From Akkermansiaceae bacterium (GTDB lineage Bacteria; Verrucomicrobiota; Verrucomicrobiia; Verrucomicrobiales; Akkermansiaceae): a stretch of 64,000 nucleotides of DNA. The stretch covers positions 1 to 64,000 of the forward strand of contig CAIVSK010000002.1 of assembly GCA_903908495.1 (NCBI GenBank). Reading direction: 5' to 3'. Under the pieces are notes generated by a model. That model did no database searches and had not been told where the DNA came from. It saw nothing but the letters and a program-made list of their open reading frames with translations. The position numbers were made by a program, and so were the translations under genes. Of the stretch, positions 65 through 47,935 are shown piece after piece (within the stretch, counting starts at the first letter, position 1; each line of letters starts with the position of its first letter).

Positions 65-98
65 AATAACAGATAACAAATAACTCTTCCCCCCCCCC
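65..98. repeat. heptad repeats and C10 tract before the first gene
   Basis: Three 7-bp units (AATAACA, GATAACA, AATAACT) run from 65 to 85. After CTT comes an uninterrupted run of ten C (89-98) that touches the ATG at 99. No Shine-Dalgarno sequence is visible. The same arrangement, heptads then a C run then the start codon, recurs before 3810. The first 64 bases hold no recognisable gene; frame 1 is open to a TAA at 67-69 and could be the tail of an upstream gene, but nothing identifies it. Confidence 0.75.
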
Positions 99-971
99 AT
101 GCACCGCTTCCTCGATCCCGCCGACATCCGCCGACTCAAGAACTATGAGTTCGGCGCCAAGGCAATGGTCGAAGGGTATCTGGCAGGCCGCCACCGCTCG
201 CACCAGCGCGGCTCGTCCATCGAGTTTCACGAATTCCGCCAGTACGTGCCCGGCGATGACCTCGCCCGCGTCGACTGGCGCGTGTTCGCCCGCAACGACA
301 AGTTGTTTTTGCGCACTTTCGAGCAGGAAACCAACCTCGAATGCCATATCTTCCTCGATTGCTCGGCCTCCATGGGCTTCCCCGAAAATTCACCCCGCCT
401 CTCCAAACTCGAGTACGCCTCGTTCTTCGCCGCCGCCCTCGCCTGGTGGGTCATCTCCAAAAACGACCGCGTCTCGCTCACCCTCTTCGACCACGGCATC
501 CGCAAATTCCTACCGCCCGCCTCCACCCGCCAACACCTCCACGACCTGCTCCACACGCTGGAAACCAACCGACCGGGATCCCACACGTCCATCACCGAGA
601 CGCTGGCCCGCGCCCAACCGCTGCTCAAACGCAAGGGCACGCTGGTCATCCTATCGGATTTCTTCAGCGAGCCCGCCGCCCTCTTCCACGCGCTCAACCC
701 GTACATCCACCGCGGCTTCCGCATCCACCTCTTCCACCTGCTCGATCCCGCTGAACTCAAGCTCGACGAGCGCGGCCTGTCGCGCTTTGTCGATATGGAA
801 ACCAACGACCAGCTCACCGTCCACCCGCACTCGCTGCGGGCCGCCTGGACCGAGGAACTCCTCAGCCACACCCGCGCCTTGCGCGCCCTCGCCTCCGCCC
901 GCCACGCCGACTACGCCCTAACCTCCACCGCAGATCCGTATTTTTCTCTCTTTGATCGCTTAAGAGACTGA
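99..971 (+). CDS. DUF58 domain protein (MoxR-associated)
   Basis: This 290-residue protein belongs to the DUF58 family, VWA-like proteins encoded next to MoxR AAA ATPases and thought to act with them in assembling or activating envelope or metalloprotein complexes. The family signature YVPGDD followed by RVDW is at about residues 49-60, and a MIDAS-like DxSxS (D87, S89, S91) lies in the VWA-like core. There is no signal peptide or membrane segment, so it is probably cytoplasmic. It sits 20 bp before the BatA-like gene. Its MoxR partner is expected to the left of the window. It is paralogous to the DUF58 gene at 30495-31385. The start codon follows a run of ten C instead of a ribosome binding site. 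Confidence 0.93.
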   Translation: MHRFLDPADIRRLKNYEFGAKAMVEGYLAGRHRSHQRGSSIEFHEFRQYVPGDDLARVDWRVFARNDKLFLRTFEQETNLECHIFLDCSASMGFPENSPRLSKLEYASFFAAALAWWVISKNDRVSLTLFDHGIRKFLPPASTRQHLHDLLHTLETNRPGSHTSITETLARAQPLLKRKGTLVILSDFFSEPAALFHALNPYIHRGFRIHLFHLLDPAELKLDERGLSRFVDMETNDQLTVHPHSLRAAWTEELLSHTRALRALASARHADYALTSTADPYFSLFDRLRD

Positions 972-991
972 AGCACTAAATCTTAAATTCC

Positions 992-2992
992 ATGTCTATC
1001 AACTACCTGCACCCGGCATTGCTTGGCTTGCTCGCGCTTGCCGGGCTGCCCGTGCTGGTGCATTTGTTGTCGCGAGCCCGGCCGCCGGTCTATCGATTTT
1101 CCAACACCGAGTTCCTGCGCCGCGTGCTGCGCAGCACCGCCCGCATCCGCCGACCCAAGGATTGGCTGCTGCTTGCCCTGCGCAGCCTCGCCCTGTTCGC
1201 GCTGGCCGCCGCGTTTGCCTGGCCGGTTGTCACGTCCAACTCCGCCTCCCTGCCCGGCGAAAAATCCACCGTCATCCTGCTGGTCGACCGCTCCGCCTCG
1301 ATGGCCGCCCGCGAAGGTGCCGGCAGCCGGTTTGATTCCGCCTGCGCCCAAGCGACCCGCTTCCTCGATCAATCCAAGCCCGACAACGCCAACCTCATCT
1401 GGATCGACGCCGAACCCGACGCCGTCTTCCCGGAACCCGGGCCCAACCTGACGTTTCTAACGGATTTACTGAAACAAACCCAGCCCAAGCCGGAAGCCGG
1501 TGCTCAATCCGCCGCCTTCGATCTGGCGCTGCGCCAACTCGCCAAGGTCGGCGGCCACCGCGAACTGGTCATCATTTCCGACTTCCAAGCGACCGCCTGG
1601 CGTGACTTTGCACCGCAGCTTCCATCCAACATCGTCGTCCGCACCCAGCGCGTCGCCACCGCCAGCCCGCCCAACGTCGCCGTCAGCCGCCTCATTCCAC
1701 AACCGGCCGAACCCGTCGCCGGCCAGGACCTGACCCTGCTCACCCGCATCCAAAATTTTTCCGCTGAGGCGGTCCGCACCCAGCTCACGCTTGATGCCGA
1801 TGGGGCGCGCCAATCGCAGGCCATCGACCTACCGGCATGGGGCGAGGCGGAATCCGCGTTTGTCATCCGCCCCGCCAACCCCGGGCCGATGGCCATCAGT
1901 GCGTCCATCGAGGCCGACGGCTTCCCCGCCGATGACGCCCATTTCACCGTCGTCCAAGTCCGCGATTCGCTGCGCCTCGCGCTCACCGCCGCGCCCGACT
2001 CGGCCGATGGCAGGATTCTCGCCAAACTCGCCACCTCGCTCAAATGGTTGGAGATGGCCACCGACCCGAAAAATGTCAGAGCGGCGGATTTTCACTTCAT
2101 TTCCGCTTGGTCCGGCGCGGCACCCGCGGATCTGCGCAAGTCCGCACAGGCCGGCACCACCCTCATCGTGCGGCCCGCGGCGGCCTGCCCGCTGGCGGCC
2201 ATCCGCGACCTCCTGAAGCTTCCGGCCGATCCGCTCGACGGCCCGCTCGCACTGGACGCCTCACCCGCCGGCTGGGCAGCCATCCCCGACGAGACCCATC
2301 CCGCCAACCAACTTTTCCGCTCCGGGGATTTCGGCAACCCGTTCGCCGGCAATTTCCGCGAACGCGTCCACCTGCCCGCCGCCCTCGCGTCGCTGCCGGG
2401 CATCCGCCCGATCGCCACCTACACCGACGGCATCCCGGCCCTGCTCGAAGGCCCGACCGCCAACGCCTCCATCCTGCTGTGGAACCTCCCGCTCGACCCC
2501 GCCAAAACCGACTGGCCCACCCAAGGCTCGTTCCTGCCCGCCATCGCCGAAGTCCTCCTCCGCACCCGGCCGCGCAACACCACCGAGCCCGCCTACTCAC
2601 TCCCCGGCAGCCTGCTCAGCTGGTCATCGAACGATCCCGCCCACGCCGGCGCCGTCACCCTGCTCGGACCAAGCTCCGAACCGCTGGCCCTCACCGAGTC
2701 CACCACCGCCAATGGCTCCCAGTGGCAATCCAAGGCCACCGCCGTCCCCGGCATTTACCGCTGGCAAATTTCCGGCCAGCCCATCGCCTTCACCGCCGTC
2801 AACTTTCCCGATTCCGAGAGCGACCTCCGCCCGCTCGAGACCACCCCCAGCTTTGGCAAGCTCGATGCCTCCAACGACTCCCTCGTCCGCCAAGCCGCCC
2901 TCGCCCAGGGCCTCCCGCTCTGGCCCTGGCTCGCCCTGGCAGGCATTCTCTTTCTCGTCCTCGAATCCCTAATCCACTCCCGAGCCCGCTAG
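992..2992 (+). CDS. BatA/VWA domain membrane protein
   Basis: This 666-residue protein has the typical BatA N-terminus: a double membrane region at about residues 6-27 and 58-80 separated by a basic loop with a PPVYRFSNTEFL-type motif. A VWA domain follows with the MIDAS motif DRSAS at residues 99-103. A long periplasmic beta-rich part comes next, and a C-terminal membrane segment at about 640-660. In aerotolerance (Bat) and MoxR operons such proteins are thought to form a membrane complex with DUF58 and MoxR proteins. It lies 20 bp after the DUF58 gene. Its paralogue in this window is 28374-30491, with the same length class and layout. The function of the complex in this organism is unknown. 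Confidence 0.9.
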   Translation: MSINYLHPALLGLLALAGLPVLVHLLSRARPPVYRFSNTEFLRRVLRSTARIRRPKDWLLLALRSLALFALAAAFAWPVVTSNSASLPGEKSTVILLVDRSASMAAREGAGSRFDSACAQATRFLDQSKPDNANLIWIDAEPDAVFPEPGPNLTFLTDLLKQTQPKPEAGAQSAAFDLALRQLAKVGGHRELVIISDFQATAWRDFAPQLPSNIVVRTQRVATASPPNVAVSRLIPQPAEPVAGQDLTLLTRIQNFSAEAVRTQLTLDADGARQSQAIDLPAWGEAESAFVIRPANPGPMAISASIEADGFPADDAHFTVVQVRDSLRLALTAAPDSADGRILAKLATSLKWLEMATDPKNVRAADFHFISAWSGAAPADLRKSAQAGTTLIVRPAAACPLAAIRDLLKLPADPLDGPLALDASPAGWAAIPDETHPANQLFRSGDFGNPFAGNFRERVHLPAALASLPGIRPIATYTDGIPALLEGPTANASILLWNLPLDPAKTDWPTQGSFLPAIAEVLLRTRPRNTTEPAYSLPGSLLSWSSNDPAHAGAVTLLGPSSEPLALTESTTANGSQWQSKATAVPGIYRWQISGQPIAFTAVNFPDSESDLRPLETTPSFGKLDASNDSLVRQAALAQGLPLWPWLALAGILFLVLESLIHSRAR

Positions 2993-2993
2993 A

Positions 2994-3136
2994 GACACAA
3001 GACTGCAAGACACAAGACGCAAGACAAGAAATCGCGATTCCTATTCTGTATCTTCCAGCCCCCCAATCTTCCTACCAATATTCTTCCTGCCCAAATCTGA
3101 TTTCCATAATCTGAAATCCTAAATCTGAAATTCAAG
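2994..3136. repeat. two blocks of heptad repeats around a CT-rich spacer
   Basis: After the stop of the BatA gene, units of the type GACACAA run from 2994 to 3029, one of them 8 bp long. A CT-rich stretch with a repeated TCTTCCT word follows. Six further 7-bp units cover 3095-3136 (ATCTGAT, TTCCATA, ATCTGAA, ATCCTAA, ATCTGAA, ATTCAAG) and end exactly at the ATG of the next gene. No promoter or ribosome binding site is evident. Confidence 0.7.
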
Positions 3137-3757
3137 ATGCCCGCCAAGAAAGCACAAGCCGCCAAGCCGAAACCCGCCGACCCCGGGGCCTTGCTTGCGC
3201 CCGCGATGCTGGCCCCGCTCGTCCGCTACTTCCGCCACGAAAAGGTCATTCTCGACTCCGATCTGGCGGAGCTATACAGCGTCTCAACCAAACGACTGAA
3301 CGAGGCGGTGAAGCGCAACCTGGACCGATTTCCTGACGACTTCATGTTCCAACTCACTGAAAATGAGGTGGAAATCTTGATATCACAAATTGCGATATCA
3401 AATTCCGGCCAATCCTCTTTAAGGTCGCAATCTGCGACCTTAAAGCGCGGGCAGCACCGCAAGTACCTCCCCTACGCATTCACCGAGCAAGGAGTCGCCA
3501 TGCTCTCCAGCGTGCTGCGCTCGCCCCGCGCCGTGGCGGTGAACATTGCCATCATGCGCACCTTCGTCCAACTCCGGCGTTTGATGGATTCCAACGCCCT
3601 GCTCGCCGAAAAAATCGAAGCCCTCGAAGAAAAACACGCCGAACACGACCAGCACTTCCAAATCGTCTTCGATGCCATCAAGCAGCTCATTGCCACGCCG
3701 TCGGCACCGACCAAGGAACTCGGTTTTCACACCATCCCGTCCACCCGCACCCCCTAA
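3137..3757 (+). CDS. ORF6N domain DNA-binding protein
   Basis: This 206-residue protein carries an ORF6N domain, a DNA-binding module related to KilA-N that occurs in phage and mobile-element proteins and many bacterial chromosomes. The domain starts near residue 30 (VILDSDLAELYSVSTKRLNE). The conserved YLPYAFTEQGVAMLSSVL block lies just after residue 110, and a coiled-coil-like tail follows at about 150-180. The variable stretch between the two conserved blocks (about 81-103) is encoded by two perfect or near-perfect palindromes and reads as two versions of the pattern L-x-S-Q-x-A. The gene sits between the BatA-like and VWA-like genes of a module that has no such gene in its second copy, so it looks inserted. 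Its target and role are unknown. Confidence 0.88.
   Translation: MPAKKAQAAKPKPADPGALLAPAMLAPLVRYFRHEKVILDSDLAELYSVSTKRLNEAVKRNLDRFPDDFMFQLTENEVEILISQIAISNSGQSSLRSQSATLKRGQHRKYLPYAFTEQGVAMLSSVLRSPRAVAVNIAIMRTFVQLRRLMDSNALLAEKIEALEEKHAEHDQHFQIVFDAIKQLIATPSAPTKELGFHTIPSTRTP
3377..3401. repeat. palindrome 1 inside the ORF6N coding sequence
   Basis: The left arm is 3377-3388 and the right arm 3390-3401, 12 bp each with one mismatch (3385 against 3393), around a single centre base at 3389. In frame it encodes residues 81-88, L-I-S-Q-I-A-I-S. Its centre is 42 bp, exactly 14 codons, from the centre of the next palindrome. Confidence 0.9.
3417..3445. repeat. palindrome 2 inside the ORF6N coding sequence
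   Basis: The arms are 3417-3429 and 3433-3445, 13 bp each without mismatch, around a 3-base centre. It encodes S-L-R-S-Q-S-A-T-L-K (residues 94-103). The core around the CAA codon resembles palindrome 1, but the outer arms differ from it while remaining self-complementary. Confidence 0.93.
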
Positions 3758-3761
3758 TAGC

Positions 3762-3809
3762 CGACCACCGACCACCGACCACCGACAACCGACAACCGCC
3801 CCCCCCCCC
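3762..3809. repeat. heptad repeats and C11 tract
   Basis: Three CGACCAC and two CGACAAC units occupy 3762-3796. A run of eleven C (3799-3809) follows and touches the TTG at 3810. There is no Shine-Dalgarno sequence. The layout repeats that at 65-98. Confidence 0.8.
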
Positions 3810-6035
3810 TTGCACCCGCCCTTTCCACTTCCCGTTCTCATCCCCCTCGCCATCCTGGCGTTGGGCATCGCCGCGTTCGGCGCGTGGCGGGGTTCGTCGG
3901 GCATCAGCCGGGGCTTGCGCTGGCTGCTCCTGTCCTTGCGGCTGCTCGCCATCGCCGCCGCCCTCGCCCTCTTGTTCAATCCGGGAAAATGGGCCTATCC
4001 CACCGAATCCCACCCCAGCCCGTGGATCATCCTCGACGACGTCTCCGCGTCGATGGCCCAGACCACCGCCGACGGCTCCTCCCGCGCTGCCGTGGCCACC
4101 TCGCTCGTGCGCCAAGCCACCGCCCACGCCAAATCGGCCGACCTCCCGCTGCGCGTTCACTCCTTCGCCGCCAAGCTCGACGTTGCCTCCAGCGCCGCGC
4201 CACCGCCGCCTGACGGCACCGCCTCCAACATCCTCCCCGCCGTTTCCCAAATCCTCCAGGACGCCGCCGCCGCCGGCGAAACCCTGGCCGGCATCATCGT
4301 CCTCAGCGACGGCCGCCAAACCCTCAATTCATCGCCCGCCGACTTCGACGCCCTCGGCCTGCGCGCCCGCAGCCGCAACACCGCCGTACACACCGTTGCC
4401 ATCGGCACCGACTCCCCGCCACCCGACCTCGCCCTCATCCAACCCCGCGCCTCCATCACCGCCTTCGCCGGCCAACCGCTGCGCATCGGCTTCGCCCTCA
4501 AGTCCACCGGCCTCGACCCGCTCCGCCCCGTCGTCACCTTGCGCGATGCCGCCGGCATGTCCCTCACCAGCCTCACCCTCGAGGTGCCTCCCGGCAAGAC
4601 CGTCGCCGCCACCTTTGAGATCAAAGCCCCGCCCACCTCCGCCCACTGGACCCTCGATACCCCCGTAATCACCGGCGAAGTCCGCTCGTCTAACAACCAC
4701 GCGGCCCTCAATATCCGCATTCTCGAATCCAAAACCCGCGTGTTCCTCGTCGAGGGCGCTCCCTATTGGGATAGCAAGTTCCTCGCCCAACTCCTCCGCC
4801 AACAACCCCACATGGACGTCCACTCCGTCCACCGCCTGTCCGATGAACGCTACTTCCGCATCGATTCCGGCGACACCAAGAACCAAGAAACCAACCAACC
4901 GGTATTTCCCAACACGCTCGACGAACTCGCCCGCTACGACCTGATTGTTTTCGGCAAAAACATCGACCCGTTCCTCACCCCGGAGCGGGCCGAGATTTTG
5001 CGCAGCTATGTTCGTGAGCGCGGCGGAGCGGTGTTATTTTCGCGCGGCAAGGCATCGACAGCGTCGCTGGCCGCGCTGGAACCGTTGGAACCAGTGGTCT
5101 GGGGCAGCGCCACCACCGCGGATTTCCGCTTCACCCCGACCCGCGACGGCGAGGCCGCCGGGCTCTTCGGCCAGGCGCTGCCCGCCCCCGACGCATCGCT
5201 GTGGGCCGCGCTGCCGACGCTGCGGGATGGCCGCCAAATCGCCATGGTCAAGCCATTCACCCGCGTCCTCGCCGAGGGCATCCCCGAGCATGGGGCAGGA
5301 TCGGGCACCCCGGGAAAATTCCCGCTGCTGATGGTCCGCCGCTATGGCCAGGGCGTCACCGGCTTGGTCAATGGTGACGGGCTGTGGAAATGGGACTTTT
5401 TTCCCGAAGCGCGGGAGCTGGGGAATTGTTACGAGGATTTCTGGACCCAATTGATTCAATGGATGGCGTCCTACTCGGAGTTTCTCCCCGGCCAGGATTT
5501 TTCGCTGAGGCTGCCCGCCACTCGCGGTGAGCTGGGCACGACCCTCGCCGCCACCCTCTCGTATCGCGGTGCCGATCCCGCCCCGCAACCGCTCATCCTC
5601 ATCACGTCCCCTGCCGGCACCACCACCAAAATCAACCCCGCCGCCATCCCGGACCCCTCCGGCCGCCCGCTCTGGCGCGCCTCGTTCACTCCCGACCAAC
5701 CCGGCCTCTGGACCCTCAAGCTCAGCGACCCGCGACCCGACGCCCCGCCCACTCCCGAAGTTCTCTTCAGCGTCCCCAACCCGCCCCAGGAATCCGACGA
5801 CCTCTCGCCCGATCCCGGCTTGCTCGAGGCCCTCGCACAAGCCACCGGCGGCCAGGCGCTCCAGCCCGCCGCCTTCACCACCCTCCTCCGCAGCCAACTC
5901 GTCAAGCACCCGCCCGCCACCCGTGAGGCCGGTGCCATCTGGGCTCCCTCCTGGGACTTCACCCTCGTCGCCCTGGCCATCGCCGCCCTCTTCGCCATCG
6001 AGTGGTTCCTCCGCCGCCGCCACGGACTTTCTTGA
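3810..6035 (+). CDS. VWA domain membrane protein of the MoxR module
   Basis: This protein of about 741 residues has two N-terminal membrane segments (about 9-25 and 37-56). A VWA-like domain with the MIDAS pattern D77-V-S-A-S81 follows. Next comes a glutamine-amidotransferase-like region (starting near VFLVEGAPYWDSKF) of the kind often seen in these large VWA proteins. A C-terminal membrane helix precedes a basic tail. TTG 3810 is chosen as start because the frame upstream overlaps the ORF6N gene and is low-complexity, and because the codons after it (Leu/Met-His-Pro/Arg) and the preceding C run mirror the start at 99. If translation instead began upstream, the C11 run would lie inside the coding sequence. 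The paralogue is 25937-28372. It probably forms a membrane complex with the BatA-like protein. Confidence 0.85.
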   Translation: MHPPFPLPVLIPLAILALGIAAFGAWRGSSGISRGLRWLLLSLRLLAIAAALALLFNPGKWAYPTESHPSPWIILDDVSASMAQTTADGSSRAAVATSLVRQATAHAKSADLPLRVHSFAAKLDVASSAAPPPPDGTASNILPAVSQILQDAAAAGETLAGIIVLSDGRQTLNSSPADFDALGLRARSRNTAVHTVAIGTDSPPPDLALIQPRASITAFAGQPLRIGFALKSTGLDPLRPVVTLRDAAGMSLTSLTLEVPPGKTVAATFEIKAPPTSAHWTLDTPVITGEVRSSNNHAALNIRILESKTRVFLVEGAPYWDSKFLAQLLRQQPHMDVHSVHRLSDERYFRIDSGDTKNQETNQPVFPNTLDELARYDLIVFGKNIDPFLTPERAEILRSYVRERGGAVLFSRGKASTASLAALEPLEPVVWGSATTADFRFTPTRDGEAAGLFGQALPAPDASLWAALPTLRDGRQIAMVKPFTRVLAEGIPEHGAGSGTPGKFPLLMVRRYGQGVTGLVNGDGLWKWDFFPEARELGNCYEDFWTQLIQWMASYSEFLPGQDFSLRLPATRGELGTTLAATLSYRGADPAPQPLILITSPAGTTTKINPAAIPDPSGRPLWRASFTPDQPGLWTLKLSDPRPDAPPTPEVLFSVPNPPQESDDLSPDPGLLEALAQATGGQALQPAAFTTLLRSQLVKHPPATREAGAIWAPSWDFTLVALAIAALFAIEWFLRRRHGLS

Positions 6036-6090
6036 ACTCTCAATTCTTCGCTCTTATGTTCGCAATCCTCATGAGACACCAGCCGCCAGA

Positions 6091-6131
6091 GAAGAGATCC
6101 GTCGGATCGGTCAGATCCGACCGATCTCTTC
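6091..6131. repeat. long stem-loop between the VWA and DUF4175-like genes
   Basis: The arms 6091-6108 and 6114-6131 are 18 bp with a single mismatch, around a 5-base loop. No T run follows on the + strand, so it is not a classic terminator. It could be an attenuator, an RNA-processing site or a repeat element. Confidence 0.75.
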
Positions 6132-6134
6132 CCT

Positions 6135-6169
6135 GATAACCCATAACCTCTAACCAATAACCGGCAACC
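6135..6169. repeat. five heptad repeats of the type NNTAACC
   Basis: The units are GATAACC, CATAACC, TCTAACC, AATAACC and GGCAACC, end to end, stopping 3 bases before the ATG at 6173. The consensus is close to the NATAACA units at 65-85. Confidence 0.8.
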
Positions 6170-6172
6170 TCC

Positions 6173-9097
6173 ATGGGCCCCTTTTCGTCACAACTCCGCC
6201 GCATCCGCGTCCTGCTCCGCTGCACCCGGGTCGTCGGCGCGGGCCTCGGACTCTTGGCGCTGGGTGCCTGCCTGTGGCTCGCCTTCGGTCTGGCCGATGG
6301 GGCGGCCGCCTTTGAAGCGCCCGCACGCGTCGCCATCACCACCACCCTCATCGCCATCTGCGCCGTCGCCGGGCTCGTCGCCCTCATCCGCTCGCTGCGC
6401 GTGCCGGCCCACACTGCCGCCGCCCGCGCCGACGCCGCCTTGGGCGACCCGCGCGCCTCCACCGCCGCCGCGCTTTCCCTCGCCAAGGGGGGCACGGGCA
6501 GCCCGCCCGTGCCCGGCAGTTCAACGCCTTCTGCAGGGAAAACAGGCGTCCCGCCTGTGATGGAAGACAGCGCGTCCCGCCTGTCTGCCCATGAAACGAC
6601 AGGCTGGAAGCCCGTCATCCAGGACAGGCAGGATGCCTATCCTCCCAACCCCTCCCCCCTCACCGAATATCTAACCACCCGCACGCTGACTGCCGCTGCC
6701 GCCGCCCTCGCCGCGCTGCCAGCCAACAAACTCATCCCGTGGCGGCCTCTCGGTCTTTGCCTGCTTGCGCTCACCGTTCCGCTGCTCACCATCGGCGGTC
6801 TGCGCCTCGCCCAACCGGCCGCTTTTGCCACCATCAGCGCACGCCTGCGCCACCCCGGTGCAGACATCCCGCCGTACAGCCGGCTCGTATTCATGCTCGA
6901 TCCGGCCACGCCGGCCACCGTCTATGGCGGCGAACTGCTCATCACGGCGGAAATCACTGGAGCCGCCCTGACCCAGCCCGTCGAGTGCCTCATCCGCCAA
7001 CCCGGCGGCGGCACCACCCTCCACCTCCAGGCGTTCCGCGAATCGCCCACCCGCTTCTCCCGCAAACTCGACGGCCTCACCGAGCCCATCGCCATCGCGT
7101 TCGCCTGCGGCAAGGCCCGCTCAACCTGGCACCCGGTGGAAATCCTGCTCGAACCGAACATCCTGAGCGGCCTGGTGCGCCTCACCCCGCCGCCCTACAC
7201 CGGCTTGGCCGCCACCGAGTTTCCGCTCGATACCAATGAGATCGCCGCCATCGAAGGGTCCAGCGTCACTCTGGAGCTTACCAGCAACCGCCCGCTCGGC
7301 TCCGCCACCCTCGTTTTCACCCCCGCCACCGTCCCCGGCACCACTCCCGTCCCCCAAGCCAACCCGGCCACCCTCCCGGCCGCCCACACCGCCGCCTTCA
7401 CTTGGATCGCCACCCAGTCCGGCCGCCTCTCCGCCACCCTCCGCGACCTCCGCGGCACGCCCAGCCCGCACCCGCTCGACCTCGCATTCCGCACCTTGCC
7501 AGACTTGCCGCCCAGCGTGGTGCTCACCTCGCCGCCGGCCATGATGTTGGCCACGCCCAAGTCGATCATCCCGGTCGTCGGCCGCGCACAGGACGACTTC
7601 GCCCTCTCCAAGGTCAACTTCGTGCGCACCCTGTCGGGCTTCCGCGACCGCGCCCGCGTCGTCGCCCCCGCCCTGCGCGATAAGTATTTTGATTTTTCCG
7701 ACAAGCTCGACCTTGCAGAACTCGGCCTCGACGCCGGCCAAACCATTGAATTGATGCTTGAGGCCTCCGACCACAACCCGTCGTTGCTCGGCCAAGGCAG
7801 CTCGGAAATTTCCCGCATCCAAATCATTTCGGAGGACCAGTATGCCCAATACGTCCGCGCCAAAACCACGATCAACCAATTTGCCAACCGTTTCCAAGCC
7901 GCCAAGGATGCCATCGACCATGCCCGCAAAGCCCTCGAGGATCTCAAACAGGCCAGCGCGGCCGGCGACCCCGCCGCCATCCAACAAGCCGCCGATGCCG
8001 CCCAAAAAGCCCACCAACAGGCGGCCGATCTGCTGGATAAAATCGCCAAGGATTTCCCAGCCTTCGAACTCGAAAAGCGCCTCCAGGACCTCGCCCAAAA
8101 ACAGGCCGACGACGTCCGCGAAAACATCAAACCCCTCGCGGACTTCGACCCGAAAGCCCCCAAGGCCGACCAGCAAGCCGCCATCGCCGAAATGCTCCAA
8201 CGCCTCGGCCGCCAGCAACCCCGGGCCGATCAACTCGGCGACGACGTCCACAAGGTCAACCAAGCCGCCACCCTCCTCGAAATGGCCGCCAAGTTCCGCC
8301 AAATCTATGAGTCCCAGGCGAACCTCGCCAAACGCTTCGGCACCATCGTCGAGGAACTCCGCCACGGCGATGACCAAAACCGCCGCCTCCTGCCATCCCT
8401 CGCCGATACCCAACAAAAAAACCGCGCCGCCCTCGACGCATTCAAAACCGAGCTGCGCCGCCGCGCCGAAGCCCTGCCCAAGGACGATCCCGACCTCACC
8501 CCGATGATCGATTCCGCCCTCAAATTCCTCGACGATCTGGCCCAGGCCGCCCCCGAAACCCTCATGGATGCCGCCGCCCAACACGGCAAAGCCGGCGAGG
8601 CCGCCGACGCCTTCGCCAATGCCGAGCGCGCCCGCGCCCTGCTCGAACGTCTCCTCTCCGAGCCCGAGCCGTTCCCCCAGGCAGCCAAGGGCCAAGCCCC
8701 GCAATTCGATATCCCGCGCCTCGATGTGAACAAAAACCTCCAACAACTCCTCGATGCATTGCTCGGCCAAAACCCAGGCCAGGGCCAGGGCGACCAACCC
8801 GGCGGCCAGGGCCAGGGCCCCGCCGGCATGGGCCTGGCCGGTGCCCCGGGCGGCGGATTCCCCATGAACCTCCCGGTCGTCGGCCCCGAGCGCCTCCAAT
8901 TCGACGACCCCGCCAGCGCCGCCGGCGGCGGCCGCAACGGCGACGGCAAAACCCCGCCCGTCCGCCCGCTGCCCGCCACCGCCGAAAACGGCACCTTCAA
9001 GCCCACCGAGACCCGCCAGGGCCAGTCCTCCACCACCACCCCCGATGCCATCCCCGAACCGTATCGCGAAGCCGTGAAACGCTTTCTGACTCCATGA
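6173..9097 (+). CDS. DUF4175-like membrane and coiled-coil protein
   Basis: This 974-residue protein has two N-terminal membrane segments, a third near residue 190-210, a beta-rich periplasmic part, then a long alpha-helical coiled-coil part (about 560-850). A Gly/Gln-rich linker at about 866-898 and a disordered tail end it. It resembles the DUF4175-type proteins that accompany MoxR/VWA operons. Its first half matches the layout of the 565-residue protein at 24238-25935. Its second half resembles the separate coiled-coil protein at 22359-24215, so here the two appear fused. About 55 residues near 104-161 are the translation of a cluster of palindromic repeats and are absent from the paralogue. 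Its stop overlaps the start of the next gene by 4 bp. Confidence 0.82.
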   Translation: MGPFSSQLRRIRVLLRCTRVVGAGLGLLALGACLWLAFGLADGAAAFEAPARVAITTTLIAICAVAGLVALIRSLRVPAHTAAARADAALGDPRASTAAALSLAKGGTGSPPVPGSSTPSAGKTGVPPVMEDSASRLSAHETTGWKPVIQDRQDAYPPNPSPLTEYLTTRTLTAAAAALAALPANKLIPWRPLGLCLLALTVPLLTIGGLRLAQPAAFATISARLRHPGADIPPYSRLVFMLDPATPATVYGGELLITAEITGAALTQPVECLIRQPGGGTTLHLQAFRESPTRFSRKLDGLTEPIAIAFACGKARSTWHPVEILLEPNILSGLVRLTPPPYTGLAATEFPLDTNEIAAIEGSSVTLELTSNRPLGSATLVFTPATVPGTTPVPQANPATLPAAHTAAFTWIATQSGRLSATLRDLRGTPSPHPLDLAFRTLPDLPPSVVLTSPPAMMLATPKSIIPVVGRAQDDFALSKVNFVRTLSGFRDRARVVAPALRDKYFDFSDKLDLAELGLDAGQTIELMLEASDHNPSLLGQGSSEISRIQIISEDQYAQYVRAKTTINQFANRFQAAKDAIDHARKALEDLKQASAAGDPAAIQQAADAAQKAHQQAADLLDKIAKDFPAFELEKRLQDLAQKQADDVRENIKPLADFDPKAPKADQQAAIAEMLQRLGRQQPRADQLGDDVHKVNQAATLLEMAAKFRQIYESQANLAKRFGTIVEELRHGDDQNRRLLPSLADTQQKNRAALDAFKTELRRRAEALPKDDPDLTPMIDSALKFLDDLAQAAPETLMDAAAQHGKAGEAADAFANAERARALLERLLSEPEPFPQAAKGQAPQFDIPRLDVNKNLQQLLDALLGQNPGQGQGDQPGGQGQGPAGMGLAGAPGGGFPMNLPVVGPERLQFDDPASAAGGGRNGDGKTPPVRPLPATAENGTFKPTETRQGQSSTTTPDAIPEPYREAVKRFLTP
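6492..6654. repeat. cluster of palindromic repeats translated within a gene
   Basis: The cluster contains several short inverted repeats: GCACGGGC/GCCCGTGC at 6492-6512, ACAGGCG/CGCCTGT with centre TCC at 6542-6558, and a block with GACAGGCTGGAAGCCCGTC at about 6598-6616. The same words recur in intergenic DNA at 47678-47694, 47961-48006 and, more loosely, 62302-62350. The reading frame stays open through all of it. Confidence 0.8.
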
Positions 9098-9729
9098 AAT
9101 ACTTAACCATTATCTTCGCCCTCACCGCCCCGCTGCTCGCGAAGGAAGGTGCCGTCGAATGCGGCAACCTCATCTATGCCGGCACCAAGACGTCCAAGTG
9201 CTTCAGCGATGAATTCCTAACAACCGTGCAGCAGAAAACCTCGATCGCCACCGAGCGCCGCTTCAAGGCGGTCAAACTCGCCGATGACGAACTTTTCAAA
9301 ATCCCCTTCGTCATCATGACCGGCGAGAGCGACTTCAACCTCACCGCCAAAGAGCGCGAAAACCTCAAAAAGTACCTCGAAAACGGCGGTTTTCTGCTAG
9401 CCTCGGCGTCCTGTTCCAACGAGGCCTGGAGCAAGTCGTTCGAGCGCGAGCTCAAGGCGATTTTCGGCAACGACTGTCTCAAGGACATCCCGCTGAGCCA
9501 TGACATCTTCCGCACCGTCTTCACCGTCAAGGACCTCAAGCTATCCCACTCCGGCCCCGAAACCCTGCTCAAGGGATTCACCCGCAACGGCAAAATCGTC
9601 GTCGTCTATTCCGCCGAAGGCCTCAACGATAGCTCCCATGCCGAAGGCTGCTGCTGCTGTGGCGGCAACGAAATCCAAAACTCCATGGAAATCAACGCCA
9701 ATATCCTCGCCTACGCACTGCTTCACTGA
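9094..9729 (+). CDS. DUF4159 domain protein, secreted
   Basis: This 211-residue protein starts with a short signal peptide (MKYLTIIFALTAPLLAKE) and is followed by a DUF4159 domain (GATase-like fold, with the stretch from about LIYAG to the LENGGFLLASASCSN block). DUF4159 proteins are frequent partners of MoxR/DUF58/VWA operons; their activity is not established. Near the C-terminus there is a run of four cysteines (residues 186-189, EGCCCCGGNE), encoded by a CTG/GCT triplet repeat. This is unusual and may bind metal or take part in disulfide exchange. Translation is probably coupled to the preceding gene through the ATGA overlap. Confidence 0.85.
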   Translation: MKYLTIIFALTAPLLAKEGAVECGNLIYAGTKTSKCFSDEFLTTVQQKTSIATERRFKAVKLADDELFKIPFVIMTGESDFNLTAKERENLKKYLENGGFLLASASCSNEAWSKSFERELKAIFGNDCLKDIPLSHDIFRTVFTVKDLKLSHSGPETLLKGFTRNGKIVVVYSAEGLNDSSHAEGCCCCGGNEIQNSMEINANILAYALLH

Positions 9730-9747
9730 AGACGGAAGACGAAGAGG

Positions 9748-9768
9748 TTATTAGTTATTAGTTATTAG
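9748..9768. repeat. three TTATTAG heptads
   Basis: Three perfect 7-bp copies lie in the spacer after the DUF4159 gene. Downstream, the word AATCTTCCTGC occurs twice (about 9784-9808), and related words occur at 3064-3090. Confidence 0.85.
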
Positions 9769-9810
9769 TCGCCGCCCACAAGAATCTTCCTGCCCTCAAT
9801 CTTCCTGCTC

Positions 9811-12800
9811 ATGAGCCTTATCCATTCCATCCCCCTGCGCCTGAGACTCAGGCCCAGGCATCCTGGCTGCGGCGGCGATGGAATGATCTCACACGCAGCT
9901 TGGCGGCGGGCAAGTTGCCCGCGCCACAGTGGACCGCGCATCCTGCCCGGATCCATATCGGCGCGCTCGGTGACCCCGGACAAGACATTTTCCCAGCGGG
10001 GGGCAGGACTCGTGCTCCTCGTCATTTCAGCATTTCAGGTTTTCTGTGTTGCAGCATTTCTATCCGCTCAAGACGCCGTACCGGACGATCCAACTCCTGC
10101 TGCCACTGCCCCCACGCCGGCCGACGAGGCGTTCGAGCGCTTCCGCCACGGCACCCTCGACGTCCCGACCTTGGCCGAGGTGTTGCCACAGCTATCCAAC
10201 AAAGACCGCCGGCCGATCATCCGCGCCACCCTGCTGGACGCCAAAGCCCCACCCCGCGCCGACCTCGTCGCCCTCCTCGACCATCCCACCCTCGCCGTGC
10301 GCCTCGGCGCATTGGAACTCCTCGAGGAACTCGCCGGCGGCGACCTGTCGTACAACCCGTGGACCCCCGCCGGGTCGCCTGAAAACGCCGCCGCACTCGC
10401 CCGTTGGCACGCCTGGGCCGGGGCCACCGCCGACGCCCGCCGCGCCGGCAGCTTGTTTTCCGACGAGCAACGCCGCGGCTACCTGCGCGATTTGCTCGGC
10501 GACGATAGCGACAAAGCCACCCGCGCCCGTCACATGTTGGAAGCGGAGGGCCTCGCCGCCGTCGGATTCCTCGAGGCCTTTCTCAACGCCACTCCCACCC
10601 TGCCCGTTGGCAGCCGGGCCCGCATCCGCGAGGCCCAGTACCAAATCACCCTCGCCCGCCAACTCGGCGACCAAGCCGCCGATACCGCCCGCCAGCTCGC
10701 CTTTGGCAGCCGCGACCAATTGCTCTCGTCCCTCACCACGGTGCGCAGCGCCGGCAGTCTTGCACTGCCGATTCTGCGCGACTTCATCACCCATTCCGAC
10801 CCCTTGGTTCGCGAATCCGCCATCGATGCCTTGCTCGTCTGCGGCGGCGAACCGGCCGTGGCCATCCTCGCCCCGCTGCTGGCCCAGGAGCCCGACGTCA
10901 ACGTCATCCACGGTGCCCTGCGCCGCCTCAAGGACATTCCCGGCCCGGAATCCGAGAAACTCGTCGAATCCTTCCTCACCCACCCCGACGAGGACCTGCT
11001 CGTCTCCGCCATCCAAACCAGCCTCACCCTCAGCGGCGACAACAAACGCTACTCATCCGGCCCCAAGAAAAGCGCCGCCACCGCCGACGACGCGATTGTC
11101 CACGCCCTATCCGATACGCGGTGGCGGGTGCGTGCCTCCGCCCTCGAATACGTCACCAAACGCAAGCTCGCCAAAGCCAAGGATGCCTGCCTCGCCCTGC
11201 TCGAGGACCCGGACGAATTCGTCCGCTTTGCCGCCATCAATGCCATCGTCGCACTTGGTGCCAAGGATGCCCTGCCAAAACTCAAGGCGATGTTTCTGGC
11301 CAACCCCGCCATGGCCGGCCCCGTCCTCGAAGGCTACGGTGCCATGAAACAATCCCTCGACCCCGAAATCCTCGCCAAACTCGACGCCGCTCCGCCCGAT
11401 GCCCGCCTCGCCGCCTTGCGCGCCGGCGGATCTGGCAAGTCCCTCACTTCCCTCGCCCTCCGCTTCGCCACCGACGACAACCTCGACGTCGCCTGCGCCG
11501 CCCTCCGCATGCTCGCCGCCGATGACGAGGCGCTCAAAAGCAACAAGGCCGCCAGTGTCATTGTGGCCGCCCTCCGCTCCAACAGCCAGGAAAAGACCAC
11601 CGCCATTCTCGAGCGCCTCGATCTGCCCGCGTCGAGTTCCCGGCGCACCGATCCGCAGTTGCTCGAGGCACTCACCGCCGCCAGAGACCAGGGCGAACCC
11701 ACCGCCCTCGACCCGCTTTACGATGCATTCCTCCTGCCAGGCAAGGACACCAAGGCGGCACCCGCCGAGCGGGACGTCCCCGCCCTTGCCGCCGCCCAAG
11801 CCGAACTTCTCCGCGAAATCGCCAAGCGCTGCACCCCGGAAACCCCGCCGGGCCTGCGCATCAACGCCGCCATCAACCTCGCCAAAGTCGGCAACAGCGA
11901 TGGCTATGCCGCATTGATCCGCGACCTGTCCAGCCAGACGACTGCACAAAAAATCGCCATTTGCAGCCACCTCAACAACCCGTCCACCCGCGAAGCCATT
12001 CCGCTGCTCACCACATTGTTGCGCGATCCGGTCCCTGAGGTGCGCAGTGCCGCGGCCGAATGCGCCATGTCCAACGAAAAGGCCAAGGCCCTCATCAACC
12101 TGGTGCTCGAGGAATTGACCCGTCCGGGGAGCCTGCTGCAACCCCACGAGGCGTATGGCTACCGCTTTGAATACGCCACGCGCGAAAACAGCGCCATCTT
12201 CCGCCCCTGGTGCCTGACCCTCCTGCAAGCTCGCGACGCCTCCACCCCCCTGCGCATTCTCGCCACCATCGCCAGCCGCCACTTCACCACCACCAAAATC
12301 ACCGACGCGCTCAGGCAACACACCACGGCCAAGGACCCGAACCTGCGGCGCGCAGCCTGGCAGGCGTTGCTCACCACCCGCCCCGCCGAACTCGGCCCCA
12401 ATGCCGAGGCCATCGCCAAGGATCCGGAGGCCTTCGTCCGCGCCGTGCTGCCGGACCGCGCCAGCAAATCCGAAAACAACTGGACCCACCGCTTTTCCGA
12501 CAGCCTGCTCACCCGCGACGATTATTCGAACTACAACGAGAAAAAACCGCGTCTGGACGCGCCGGTCCGCGCCATCCTGCAACGCCTCGCCGAGCGCGAC
12601 CCGTCTCCACTCCTGCGCTTCGAAGCCGGCTTCGCCCTCATCGCCCAGGGCGTGCCAATCGATCTCGATGCCTTTGTGGCGCTGCTGCCCCGCCTCTCCA
12701 AGGAAACCAACGCGGTCTATCGAATCACCGAGTGGCTCGGCGAAAATGCCGCCCGCGCCACCCCGGCACTGCGGCCGCTGCTCGCCGTGGTCAACCCGTC

Positions 12801-14052
12801 CACCATCCAGCCCGACAAACTCAAACTCCTCAACGCCCGCATCAATCCGGTCCAAACCAAGGGCTTTGCCACCTTCGCCTCGCTGGCGGAGTCCGCCGCC
12901 AAACCCACCGCCAAGGACGCCCCGGTGCTAACCGACGCGCCCGCCGCAGCCCCCCCGCCAACGCGCGCCTCGCTCGACGTCGTGTTCTTCTACAAACCCG
13001 GCTGCCCGGAATGCATCAAAACCAAACAATTTATCACTTTGCTCCAAAAAGACTTTCCACTCGTTAAAGTCACTGAATTCAACATCCTGGAAGCCTCGGG
13101 CATCATCCTCAACCAGGCGCTCTGCGGCCGCTTCACCGTCCCCTCAATCAAACACTCGCTCACCCCGGCCGTCTTCACCCAGGCCGGCTTCCTCATCGGC
13201 ACCGATATCGCCCCCGCCTCCCTCGGCAAACTCTTCACCCAAACCATGGCCGAAGCGCCGGACAACTCCTGGCGCCAACTCGACGAACCCGAGCAACTCG
13301 CCGCCGCCAAGGAAGTGGACCGCCGCTACCGGGAAATCACCCTGCCCATCGTGCTCGGCGGTGGCTTGTTAGACGGCATCAACCCCTGCGCCTTTGCCAC
13401 CATCATCTTCTTCCTGTCCTACCTGCAAATCGCCCGCCGCTCGCCGCGCGAAATGCTCATGGTCGGCGCCGCCTTCATCAGCGCCGTGTTCATCGCCTAC
13501 CTCGCCGCCGGCCTGGTCCTCTACGCAATGTTGGATCAACTCAACAACCGCTTCGCCGGCATCCAGTTCTGGCTCAACCTGTGCTTCGGCCTGCTCGCCT
13601 TGCTCGCCGCCTGGCTGTCGTTGCGCGACGCCCTGCGCGCCCGCGCCGGCCGCCTCGACGAGATGAGCCTGCAACTGCCCGGCTTCCTCAAGTCCCATAT
13701 CCGCGGCGTCATCCGCAGCGGCGCCCGCGCCCGCAACTTCGTCATCGCCGCCTTTGTCTCCGGGCTGGTCGTCTCGCTATTGGAACTCGCCTGCACCGGC
13801 CAGGTCTATGCCCCCATCATCTATCAAATACAGAAGGGCAGGCTCGATGCCGTGCTGTGGCTGGTCATCTATAACCTCGCCTTCATCGCCCCACTGATCG
13901 TCATCTTCCTGCTAGCCTACGGCGGCCTGCGCAGCGAGACGCTCATCGCCTTGCAGAAAAGGCACACCTTCGCCGTCAAGCTCGGCCTCGCCTTGCTGTT
14001 CCTCTTCCTCGCGCTGTTCATCTTCTTCGGCAGCAACCTCTTACCGCATTGA
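9811..14052 (+). CDS. HEAT-repeat / thioredoxin-like / CcdA-like fusion protein
   Basis: This very large protein (up to 1413 residues) begins with a hydrophobic signal segment (LVLLVISAFQVFCVAAFLSA). About 950 residues of HEAT/armadillo-type helical repeats follow, then a thioredoxin-like domain with a CPEC motif near residue 1065. At the C-terminus is a polytopic membrane domain with the signature LLDGINPCAFATIIFFLSYL and the later ELACTGQVYAPIIY. These two cysteines are the pair expected for the electron-transferring DsbD/CcdA family. The protein therefore probably moves reducing equivalents from the cytoplasm to the periplasm, onto its own thioredoxin domain or a client held by the HEAT array. 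The start is uncertain: residues 1-60 look like translated repeat DNA (a palindrome lies at 9906-9922), and GTG codons at 9970 or 10012 would give a more normal signal peptide. Confidence 0.85.
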   Translation: MSLIHSIPLRLRLRPRHPGCGGDGMISHAAWRRASCPRHSGPRILPGSISARSVTPDKTFSQRGAGLVLLVISAFQVFCVAAFLSAQDAVPDDPTPAATAPTPADEAFERFRHGTLDVPTLAEVLPQLSNKDRRPIIRATLLDAKAPPRADLVALLDHPTLAVRLGALELLEELAGGDLSYNPWTPAGSPENAAALARWHAWAGATADARRAGSLFSDEQRRGYLRDLLGDDSDKATRARHMLEAEGLAAVGFLEAFLNATPTLPVGSRARIREAQYQITLARQLGDQAADTARQLAFGSRDQLLSSLTTVRSAGSLALPILRDFITHSDPLVRESAIDALLVCGGEPAVAILAPLLAQEPDVNVIHGALRRLKDIPGPESEKLVESFLTHPDEDLLVSAIQTSLTLSGDNKRYSSGPKKSAATADDAIVHALSDTRWRVRASALEYVTKRKLAKAKDACLALLEDPDEFVRFAAINAIVALGAKDALPKLKAMFLANPAMAGPVLEGYGAMKQSLDPEILAKLDAAPPDARLAALRAGGSGKSLTSLALRFATDDNLDVACAALRMLAADDEALKSNKAASVIVAALRSNSQEKTTAILERLDLPASSSRRTDPQLLEALTAARDQGEPTALDPLYDAFLLPGKDTKAAPAERDVPALAAAQAELLREIAKRCTPETPPGLRINAAINLAKVGNSDGYAALIRDLSSQTTAQKIAICSHLNNPSTREAIPLLTTLLRDPVPEVRSAAAECAMSNEKAKALINLVLEELTRPGSLLQPHEAYGYRFEYATRENSAIFRPWCLTLLQARDASTPLRILATIASRHFTTTKITDALRQHTTAKDPNLRRAAWQALLTTRPAELGPNAEAIAKDPEAFVRAVLPDRASKSENNWTHRFSDSLLTRDDYSNYNEKKPRLDAPVRAILQRLAERDPSPLLRFEAGFALIAQGVPIDLDAFVALLPRLSKETNAVYRITEWLGENAARATPALRPLLAVVNPSTIQPDKLKLLNARINPVQTKGFATFASLAESAAKPTAKDAPVLTDAPAAAPPPTRASLDVVFFYKPGCPECIKTKQFITLLQKDFPLVKVTEFNILEASGIILNQALCGRFTVPSIKHSLTPAVFTQAGFLIGTDIAPASLGKLFTQTMAEAPDNSWRQLDEPEQLAAAKEVDRRYREITLPIVLGGGLLDGINPCAFATIIFFLSYLQIARRSPREMLMVGAAFISAVFIAYLAAGLVLYAMLDQLNNRFAGIQFWLNLCFGLLALLAAWLSLRDALRARAGRLDEMSLQLPGFLKSHIRGVIRSGARARNFVIAAFVSGLVVSLLELACTGQVYAPIIYQIQKGRLDAVLWLVIYNLAFIAPLIVIFLLAYGGLRSETLIALQKRHTFAVKLGLALLFLFLALFIFFGSNLLPH

Positions 14053-22347: not shown

Positions 22348-22358
22348 GGTGGAGCTAG

Positions 22359-24215
22359 TTAGGGATTGGCGTCGGTCTCGGTCGCGAGATTCTTGATGTA
22401 TTGATTCACCAATGGAGCGAATTCCGGCGCGGTTTTCTCCTGCTTGAGGAGAAGCAAGGCGTCCCGTTGGGCGTCGCTGGCATCGGCAAGGTTAGAATAG
22501 ATCGGGCCGCCCCTCAAGGCGGTCGAAGTGTTGCCTCCGCCTTCTCCTGGTCCGTCTGCTGCTTGTGCCTGTTGCGCAGCGAGCTGCATGGCGGCTTCCT
22601 GCAGTCCGGCCAGGGCCTTGTTGATATTGGCGCGGGTGTGATAGAGGTTATGTCCGACCTGGGTCCCGTTGGCGGCGAGATCCGCCAACCGTTGGGCTTC
22701 AGCGATTGCCGCGTGGACATCTTCGCCGACGATCGGGCCAGCCGCCTTGGCTTGTTCGCTTCCGGCAGACATATTCTGCTGTGCTTGCCCGACGCGGGGC
22801 TTGAAATCCCCCTTGGTGTCATTCATGCGACCCGCGAGATCGACGTTGATCCTGGCATCCACGAGCTGTCTCATCGCATCCTGGATGGCGGCCGCCTCGG
22901 GACTCAATTTCGGTTCTTGTGGATCCGCGCCGCTTTGGGCGGCTGCCGCAGCGGCAATTTTCTCCGCTTTTTGTTGGAGTGTCCGGCTCATGGCCGAGAG
23001 GTCCCGGGCGAGCGAATTTTGCGAATCCACAGTGCGGGCGACGAGCGGGATATTGTCGCGGAAATTTTCGGGCCGGAGGGTATCGCCGATTTCGGCGGCC
23101 TGGGTGGTGGACTCGGCGGCTTTGGTGGAGGATTCGGCATCGAGGGATTTGATGCGGTTTTGCAGGACATCCATGCGATCGGCGATGCCGAGTTGATCCC
23201 GGGTGGCCCGGTTTTTTTGTTCACCCCACATGTTAGGCGTGAGGTTGGCGAGTCCGTCTTCCTTGAGGGATAAGTCGCCGAGTTGGTTGGCGATGTCGCG
23301 GAGGCGCTCCTCGTCGCTTTTAGCGGCGTCGAGGCTTGCAATGACGGTCTGGAGGGTATTGAAAACGCTCTCCTGTTCGGCGGCGGAGCGGGCGTAATCA
23401 CGATCCATGGCGGTGGCTGCCGCTCGCGAATGTTCGTCGATCTTGCCCGCCTTGGCGACTTCCAGAGCCTGTTTGAAATGAGTGACGTCAGCGGCCAGCG
23501 GATCCTCCACGACTTTAGCCAGGGCTTCGACGGCGAGGCCGGTTTCCTTTACCAACGTCGATTGCTCCATTTGGCGACGGCTGTGTTCCCGCATGAGGTT
23601 TTGTTTTTTTTCTGCAAGTCGCAATGCTTTGATGGCCTCCAGATCATCCCGTTCCGGACGCGGCAGCTTGGCGGGCATGGCGGCCACATCGCTGGCGAGC
23701 TGAGCCGGGGTGATCCCGAGCTCCGTCAAGTTCTTGGTCAATTCGCGAGTGGCGCGGAGGTTGGCCGACTGCCGCACGGCGAGTTCCTCGATGCGTTTCT
23801 GCATTGCTGCCTGATTCGAATAGAGGGCGAGTTGGTCGGCCAGGGTGCGCAGGCGGGTTTGGATTAGTTTCTGTTGGCCGCTGGCTTGCGCGATATTGCC
23901 GTGGACGAGGGCGGCTTCGCCCGAGTGGCTGGCCACCAGCAACAAGCGCACGACGTCGGGCATGTTGCGCGCGGTGATGGTATCGAGCGAGCCCACGGAT
24001 TCCTTCAACTTGGCGATTTCCACGGCGGCGATCTCGTAGTGCTCGTAGTCACGCATGATGGCGGCCAGATCGTTTTTCATCTGGTCGGTGGCGCTTTGCA
24101 GTTGGGTCTGCGAGACGCTGGCGCGGTAGGCGGTGGTATTCGCCTCGGATTGTTGAGCGCGCGCCGGAAGGCACAGGGCAACCACAACAGCAATGAGGAG
24201 AGTGATGGTTTTCAT
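22359..24215 (-). CDS. secreted alpha-helical coiled-coil protein
   Basis: This 618-residue protein has a signal peptide (about 1-20, LPARAQ) and is otherwise almost entirely predicted alpha-helical, with heptad-like patterns and Ala/Gln/Glu richness. No enzymatic motif is seen. It corresponds in position and character to the C-terminal coiled-coil half of the 974-residue protein at 6173-9097, so in this module that half is a separate exported protein. It is likely a scaffold of the MoxR/VWA membrane complex. The function is unknown. Confidence 0.75.
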   Translation of the reverse strand: MKTITLLIAVVVALCLPARAQQSEANTTAYRASVSQTQLQSATDQMKNDLAAIMRDYEHYEIAAVEIAKLKESVGSLDTITARNMPDVVRLLLVASHSGEAALVHGNIAQASGQQKLIQTRLRTLADQLALYSNQAAMQKRIEELAVRQSANLRATRELTKNLTELGITPAQLASDVAAMPAKLPRPERDDLEAIKALRLAEKKQNLMREHSRRQMEQSTLVKETGLAVEALAKVVEDPLAADVTHFKQALEVAKAGKIDEHSRAAATAMDRDYARSAAEQESVFNTLQTVIASLDAAKSDEERLRDIANQLGDLSLKEDGLANLTPNMWGEQKNRATRDQLGIADRMDVLQNRIKSLDAESSTKAAESTTQAAEIGDTLRPENFRDNIPLVARTVDSQNSLARDLSAMSRTLQQKAEKIAAAAAAQSGADPQEPKLSPEAAAIQDAMRQLVDARINVDLAGRMNDTKGDFKPRVGQAQQNMSAGSEQAKAAGPIVGEDVHAAIAEAQRLADLAANGTQVGHNLYHTRANINKALAGLQEAAMQLAAQQAQAADGPGEGGGNTSTALRGGPIYSNLADASDAQRDALLLLKQEKTAPEFAPLVNQYIKNLATETDANP

Positions 24216-24237
24216 GGGTCGGGCGAAGGGGTTAGCA

Positions 24238-25935: not shown

Positions 25936-25936
25936 G

Positions 25937-28372: not shown

Positions 28373-28373
28373 T

Positions 28374-30491: not shown

Positions 30492-30494
30492 GTT

Positions 30495-31374
30495 TTATTT
30501 TTTCGCCCGTTGGCGAAACGCTAGGTATCCGCTGAGGGTTTCGGCCAGGCTCTTGCTGGTGTCTGCGAGCACGTAATGGGCGCGAAATTTCTCACACATC
30601 CTGCGGATGCGGGTTTGAAATTCGCCGAAGTTTGCAAGGTAGGCCTTGCGATAATCTTCCGGTGATATTTTCAGGCGATCCACGCCTTCCAAATTGCGGA
30701 ATTCCCATGTTCCATCGAATGGGAAGGTGAGTTCGTGGGAGTCGAGGGTATGGAAAACGATGACCTCGTTGCCGCTGAAGGCGAAGCGCTCGAGCCCGCT
30801 TGCCAGACCGTCATCATCGTCGAAGAGATCGCTGATGATGATGACGATGCCGCGCCTGCTGGTTTGGCGGGCGACTTGTTGGAGGGAATTGCCCAAACGG
30901 GTGCCGCCCTTGCCTTGAAACGCCGCGAGGCGCTGCATGATGTGCTGGATGCGTTGCTGGTTATCGGTTCTGGGCAGATATTCCTGGATTTCCTCGCCAA
31001 CCATGGCGAGCGCCACGGCATCGCGCTGGGTCAGAATGACGTGGGCGAGGCAGGCGGCGAGAACCTTGCCATATTGGAGTTTGGAAAGCTGGCCCGAGCC
31101 ATAATTCATCGAGGCGCTGCCGTCCAATACGATGTTGGCGACAAAATTAGTATCCTGTTCGTATTGGCGGATATAGTAACGCTCGGAGCGGCCAAAAACC
31201 TTCCAATCGAGGTGTCGGGTATCATCACCCGGCGTATATTCGCGGTGTTGTGCGAACTCGATGGCGAAGCCCTGGAACGGGGACCGGTGTTCACCCACGC
31301 GGTAGCCTTCGACGATTTTGCGGGCCATGATTCCCAGAGCGTCACCTTTGGAAACCGCGTCCGGATCCAGCAGG

Positions 31375-31385
<11 letters not shown>
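30495..31385 (-). CDS. DUF58 domain protein (second module)
   Basis: This 296-residue protein contains the DUF58 signature YTPGDDTRHLDWKVFG and a MIDAS-like DGSAS. It is paralogous to the protein at 99-971. The start at 31385 overlaps the MoxR coding region by 11 bp, which suggests translational coupling. It is expected to act with the MoxR ATPase on the membrane-bound VWA proteins. Confidence 0.92.
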
Positions 31386-32414
<1,029 letters not shown>

Positions 32415-32418
<4 letters not shown>

Positions 32419-37952: not shown

Positions 37953-37976
37953 CTTTGCGGCTTTGCGGCTTTGCGC
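37953..37976. repeat. three 8-bp repeats CTTTGCGG/CTTTGCGC
   Basis: Three consecutive 8-bp units lie in the kinase-typA spacer. Words of this sort are widespread intergenic repeats in environmental bacteria. Confidence 0.75.
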
Positions 37977-47857: not shown

Positions 47858-47935
47858 GGCTCACCCTAAAGGTATCTGCCAAATAATTCATAACTCTTTC
47901 ATTATCTGTGTAATCTGTGTAATCTGTGGTTCCTA
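47858..47935. repeat. AT-rich dispersed repeat, copy B
   Basis: It shares GGCTCACCC and ATTCATAACTCTTTC with copy A at 37790-37822. It then contains a 9-bp-period ATCTGTGTA repeat ending in ATCTGTGGTT (about 47903-47931). Confidence 0.75.

Follow-up and report, generated by a model that had tools for sequence, protein, structure and literature searches.

Strand-oriented heptanucleotide arrays in the operon spacers of an Akkermansiaceae genome

Why should the consecutive spacers of one operon be built of tandem repeats that share a 7-bp period and differ in the sequence of the unit? The question is raised by the left end of a 75-kb contig from a freshwater Akkermansiaceae draft genome of 6.19 Mb; the 64,000 nucleotides analysed there are called the window. 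By Pfam, the operon is ordered DUF58, BatA/VWA, ORF6N, two genes without a match, DUF4159 and HEAT (Table 1). Among named genomes that share this operon, the closest are Akkermansiaceae MAGs, whose DUF58 protein is 95% identical. Gene 4 starts with TTG, which is also found at the same place in three relatives (L029, L030 and L031). Gene 7 may start at a GTG near 10010 and not at 9811, since the alignment with relatives begins only at about residue 102. A period-8 CATTTCAG stretch at 10023-10060 adjoins this likely true start, within a putative signal peptide. Both the window and L031 carry a complete ORF6N gene; in L029 (13050-13210) and L030 (12815-12975) only a 3'-end remnant of it lies between BatA and gene 4. 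A multicopy mobile element at the left edge of the window was ruled out, as positions 1-64 are single-copy in the genome.

Table 1. Genes, heptamer arrays and the inverted repeat of the operon, with the intervals that TRF reports at period 7
Feature	Position	Strand	TRF array	Basis and remarks
Start-proximal array AATAACA, 3 units, ahead of DUF58 gene	65..85	+	65-84	TRF and shuffles; then a C run up to ATG at 99
DUF58/VWA gene (g1)	99..971	+		Pfam
g1-g2 spacer, short, two weak units TAAATCT/TAAATTC	972..991	+		Shuffle p 0.018
BatA N-terminal + VWA gene (g2)	992..2992	+		Pfam
Stop-proximal array AAGACAC/AAGACGC, directly after BatA-like gene	2993..3028	+	2993-3026	TRF; word in 18/59 relatives
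Start-proximal degenerate array AAATCTG/AAATCCT	3093..3136	+	3093-3135 (periods 14 and 7)	TRF and shuffles; ends at ATG of ORF6N gene
ORF6N-domain gene (g3)	3137..3757	+		Pfam
Start-proximal array CGACCAC/CGACAAC, 5.4 units	3761..3798	+	3761-3798	TRF; then a C run up to gene 4 TTG
Gene 4	3811..6035	+		Without Pfam match; found in most relatives' operons
Inverted repeat (hairpin) GATCGGTCGGATC in g4-g5 spacer	6089..6132	+		Similar ones in L031 g4-g5 and g1-g2 spacers
Start-proximal degenerate array ATAACCN, ahead of gene 5	6135..6169	+	6136-6162	TRF and shuffles
Gene 5	6173..9097	+		974 aa, without Pfam match
DUF4159 gene	9094..9729	+		Pfam
Stop-proximal array GTTATTA (reverse complement of AATAACY word), 17 nt after DUF4159 gene	9747..9769	+	9747-9769	TRF
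HEAT-repeat gene 7	9811..14052	+		Start uncertain: ATG 9811 or GTG near 10010

The initial annotation had proposed a heptamer period in six spacers, and TRF places the arrays within a few bases of all of them. The units do differ between the spacers, as had been claimed (AATAACA, AAGACAC, AAATCTG, CGACCAC, ATAACCN and GTTATTA). When the best score of each spacer was compared with 500 letter shuffles of that spacer, period 7 gave p<=0.002 in five spacers and 0.018 in the 20-bp g1-g2 spacer, which had not been listed before. In the same spacers, periods 5, 6 and 8 never gave p<0.03, and period 9 reached 0.02 in one. Several arrays end at start codons, as had been described, but the array beyond the DUF4159 gene follows a stop instead. 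The second module of the window (22358-33812) is free of arrays, also as described, because its genes are packed too tightly (spacers of 0-22 bp) to leave room for them. In addition, runs of 7-11 C lie flush against the start codon at 89-98 and 3801-3811 of the window and in the L066, L018 and L146 spacers, and a C5 run occurs at most 20 nt from the start in 5 of 22 array leaders and in 39 of 714 others. The length of these runs could vary through slippage.

Beyond the operon, we counted arrays in a sample of 1.215 Mb from this genome, 87 kb of which is intergenic. Among the intergenic arrays with a score>=11, 25 have period 7, 1 has period 6, 2 have period 8 and 6 have period 9; the absolute density of period 7 is inflated because word hits guided the choice of stretches C141, C191, C333 and C420 and of the C50-C374 set, a choice that was blind to strand and spacer type. 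The excess of period 7 over 6 and 8, whose absence from other intergenic DNA had been named as evidence against the initial reading, is thus present. In the first batch, made up of the window, contigs chosen by their number and a single hit-picked C191 stretch, the intergenic counts were 5, 0 and 1 for periods 7, 6 and 8. Dinucleotide shuffles of the first 60 kb of intergenic DNA yielded ~0 period-7 arrays. The arrays are mainly intergenic (16 in 60 kb of intergenic DNA versus 6 in 763 kb of coding DNA at score>=12), and the operon is locally rich in them, with a score>=9 in 4 of its 6 spacers versus 22 of the 292 same-strand spacers of the sample. Other intergenic word families have a period of 8 (CTTTGCGG) or 9 (ATCTGTGTA and CACGGATTT), and CACGGATTT is also found as inverted pairs; these families lie at 37953-37975 and 47904-47928 of the window, L072 9416-9589 and L077 10831-10891.

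Heptanucleotide microsatellites are a known kind of repeat (PMC4679880, PMC4692102, PMC2700814, PMC4060949). Long heptanucleotide SSRs, according to Mrazek 2007 as cited in PMC4679880 and PMC4692102 and to PMC4060949, have 7-bp units, are intergenic and vary in length, which is attributed to polymerase slippage. The arrays of the window and the genome share with them the tandem 7-bp excess over chance and over neighbouring periods and the mainly intergenic location, but here several word families occur together and follow a strand rule relative to starts and stops. The TAACTGA repeats of marine Beggiatoaceae, cyanobacteria and some Bacteroidetes (PMC4679880) likewise form short heptamer sets a few nt before starts, and relative L031 carries TAACTGA-TAACCGA before a start. 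Those repeats consist of one dominant word with rare near variants, whereas many words are used here. TAACTGA was rejected as a shared word, since TAACTGATAACTGATAAC has 0 matches in this genome (G000) and is found in 2 of 145 genomes of the phylum. The GGGAATC and GGGGAYT repeats of Xanthomonas and Nostoc (PMC4692102) are similar in being intergenic heptamer arrays, some of them in inverted pairs, which vary in length and sequence between close species. They are G-quadruplex candidates; in contrast, the start-proximal arrays here are G-poor on the sense strand, and most units of the window have no GGG on either strand. The elements of Geobacter metallireducens (GGGACCG; class 3 MTYCTGA; PMC2700814) are also tandem heptamers between genes with more than one word family, but they are described as regulator-site families of four or five units; MTYCTGA x3 occurs at one locus in this genome. 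The likeness to cyanobacterial heptameric STRR, suggested by the initial annotation, is fair as to kind: like the three heptamers of Calothrix PCC 7601 (as cited in PMC4692102), the arrays comprise several distinct words, intergenic and in many copies per genome, under a genome-wide heptamer period. However, the host here belongs, judging by its 95% identical relatives, to the Akkermansiaceae and not to the cyanobacteria, word and strand are constrained, and the likeness is one of general description. Our literature search, which was thin in subscription journals, found no paper on this vocabulary, on the strand rule or on a link with SD-scarce leaders in Verrucomicrobiales.

The further claim that the period is conserved and the sequence is not stands in part. 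Orthologous spacers do exchange words, but the units come from a limited set that recurs at unlinked loci and in other species. The families AATAACY, GACMACY, AAGACRC and AAATCTG recur across the genome and in related species. Of 59 genomes, 18 contain AAGACRC (2.7 units) and 11 contain GACMACY (2.9 units), and the reversed control words for these two gave 0 matches in the genus. For AATAACY such a control carries no information, as reversing the word leaves a pattern that still matches the arrays of AATAACY itself. In this genome the GACMACY pattern has 120 overlapping matches, on at least 12 contigs among those listed. Orthologous g1-g2 spacers carry TAACCTC in L031 and AAGACGC with TTATTAG in L029, and in L035 ATCTCAA grades into CTCTTAG and CTCCAAG before the array ends at a GTG. 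Orthologous spacers bear arrays but other words; therefore, what is inherited is the tendency to carry arrays, and not the word found at a given place. Neighbouring units within arrays are 92% identical and units three or more apart 73%, as stepwise slippage or local duplication predicts, and in L026 a single array changes from GAAATCT to GAAGGGC units. The sole close pair of relatives, L029 and L030 (96% identical MAGs), differs in the operon spacers by indels of 1-3 nt and by none of 7, so that the rate of change is not extreme. The genome G196 belongs to a different family of the order; there, AGAAGACACAAGACGCAAGACTTGAG or close variants of it are repeated after stops almost unchanged (L119, L123 and L127), and by their sequence seem more like a dispersed element than independent slippage. 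An identical tail, GTTCACGGGTGTCCGGCTAACTGAGGGTTCTGCATTCCCAAAGCGAAGAAAATG, follows (GTTATTG)n at two loci of G018 (L156 and L157), as though the array had been copied together with a gene start.

The placement of the arrays depends on the direction of the flanking genes. Same-strand spacers hold 23 arrays (0.55 per kb) and convergent spacers 3 (0.17 per kb), while the 19.6 kb of divergent spacers hold 0, an absence with p ~0.001. Where placement is clean, the start-proximal arrays stop 0-21 nt short of the start codon. Among the well-placed arrays, a small set (n=21) for which gene starts come from a crude ORF caller, the sense strand has more C than G in 13 of 13 start-proximal arrays and more G than C in 6 of 8 stop-proximal ones (Fisher p 0.0005 between the two groups). 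The AATAAC word follows the same division across three species of two families, with sense/antisense counts of 11/2 in start-proximal and 4/19 in stop-proximal position (p 0.0002). With all arrays, including those that overlap the edges of called genes, the strand test is weaker (p 0.087), and the strand rule thus depends on boundary quality. The mean G fraction of the sense strand in start-proximal arrays is 0.11. The last 25 nt of ordinary spacers show a mild skew (C 0.35, G 0.23).

Leaders with arrays have a mean predicted MFE of -3.2 kcal/mol, compared with -13.8 for leaders without. Inverting the array in place lowers the predicted MFE to -10.3 kcal/mol; of 22 leaders, 19 are more open with the array in its native orientation. 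Letter-shuffled array leaders, at -4.8 kcal/mol, are nearly as open, so most of the openness comes from base composition and not from repetition. In this genome SD-like motifs are not enriched before starts (8.9% at -19..-4 versus 10.1% at -60..-45). Akkermansia muciniphila is listed among SD-scarce organisms (PMC10783764), and in SD-less Flavobacterium leader structure tunes initiation (PMC6847099).

We lean towards regarding the arrays as heptanucleotide microsatellites grown by slippage, in which the strand is filtered so that leaders before starts stay G-poor and unstructured. Starting from limited seed words, local slippage in the non-coding DNA between operon genes would lengthen and alter the arrays, and translation would filter which strand of a word survives beside a gene. 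Without an SD signal, the ribosome would depend on a leader that is open and poor in G, and before starts an array would persist only with its C/A/T-rich strand in sense. In other words, the mutational process would set the period and selection the orientation. Analogy with known repeats and the likeness of neighbouring units point to slippage as the source, and the predicted leader structure suggests ribosome access as the selective reason for the strand. Slippage might also act by itself, with functionless arrays arising in any unconstrained non-coding DNA and the strand bias a by-product of skew around genes. Such a neutral origin would fit the unrelated words of orthologous spacers and the rank of period 7 as the commonest long microsatellite class in many genomes (Mrazek 2007, cited in PMC4679880 and PMC4692102). 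It would also fit the survey of PMC4060949, which covers four Verrucomicrobia genera and in whose table 2 only 7n3 among the long classes has a raised median (0.50 in Verrucomicrobia, a slight rise, and 2.00 in Planctomycetes). It does not, however, account for the strand rule and the empty divergent spacers, and the mild skew of ordinary spacers is unlikely to yield 13/13; we consider it possible but rather unlikely. Sequence-specific sites, with every word recognised by a regulator of translation or transcription (S1, Csp, Csr or a repeat protein) and one protein per 7 nt, were proposed by MacGregor for TAACTGA upstream of starts (PMC4679880), and here too words recur at many loci. Yet the many words in consecutive spacers of one operon and in orthologous spacers are ill-suited to a single binding specificity, and this explanation appears highly improbable. 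Frame insulation has still less to recommend it and we give it almost no credence: as 7 = 1 mod 3, three units with a stop would close all three frames between genes, and some units do bear TAA, TAG or TGA (AATAACA, TTATTAG, ATCTGAA), but GGTTATT and AAGACAC have no stop in sense. Frame-closure counts of the stop-proximal arrays do not support it, as all frames are closed in 6 of 12 on the sense strand versus 8 of 12 on the antisense strand.

Arrays on the two sides of a spacer might instead serve as paired arms, a G-rich array past a stop pairing with its reverse complement before the next start to form an intercistronic hairpin that couples translation or ends transcription. Inverted matches of at least 10 nt between spacer halves occur in 13 of 134 same-strand spacers, where permutation gives 0.55, and several such arms are built of words, as in L079 with (GGGTTAT)5 and then (ATAACCC)10. 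In G026, loci of the form stop-(GTTATTG)n...(AATAACC)n-start or -stop are striking, but these were chosen loci, which make paired arms seem commoner than they are. In the window, only the g4-g5 spacer has a strong hairpin, and it is made of non-heptamer sequence; the g3-g4 spacer folds at 0.0 kcal/mol, and unbiased stretches of G018 have almost no such pairs. Hairpins were therefore rejected as a general rule, the excess being clear in this genome and weak in unbiased G018, and we doubt that paired arms explain the arrays. A broader conjecture, which we offer as speculation unlikely to hold in full, is that heptamer arrays in Verrucomicrobiales that scarcely use SD are slippage-made, interchangeable and sequence-independent ribosome landing pads, and that a complementary array past a stop would form a hairpin melted by the terminating ribosome, giving tunable translational coupling within operons.

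In this study, the arrays extend a known kind of bacterial microsatellite and suggest what such repeats may be tolerated or selected for. If slippage-grown arrays do keep leaders open, this would give a concrete reason why heptamer microsatellites gather at operon starts in bacteria that do not use SD sites, and it would make them a source of fast-changing translation signals. Even if the arrays are neutral, they show that most of the family's intergenic sequence has been replaced, one word at a time, between species with about 80-97% identity in their operon proteins.
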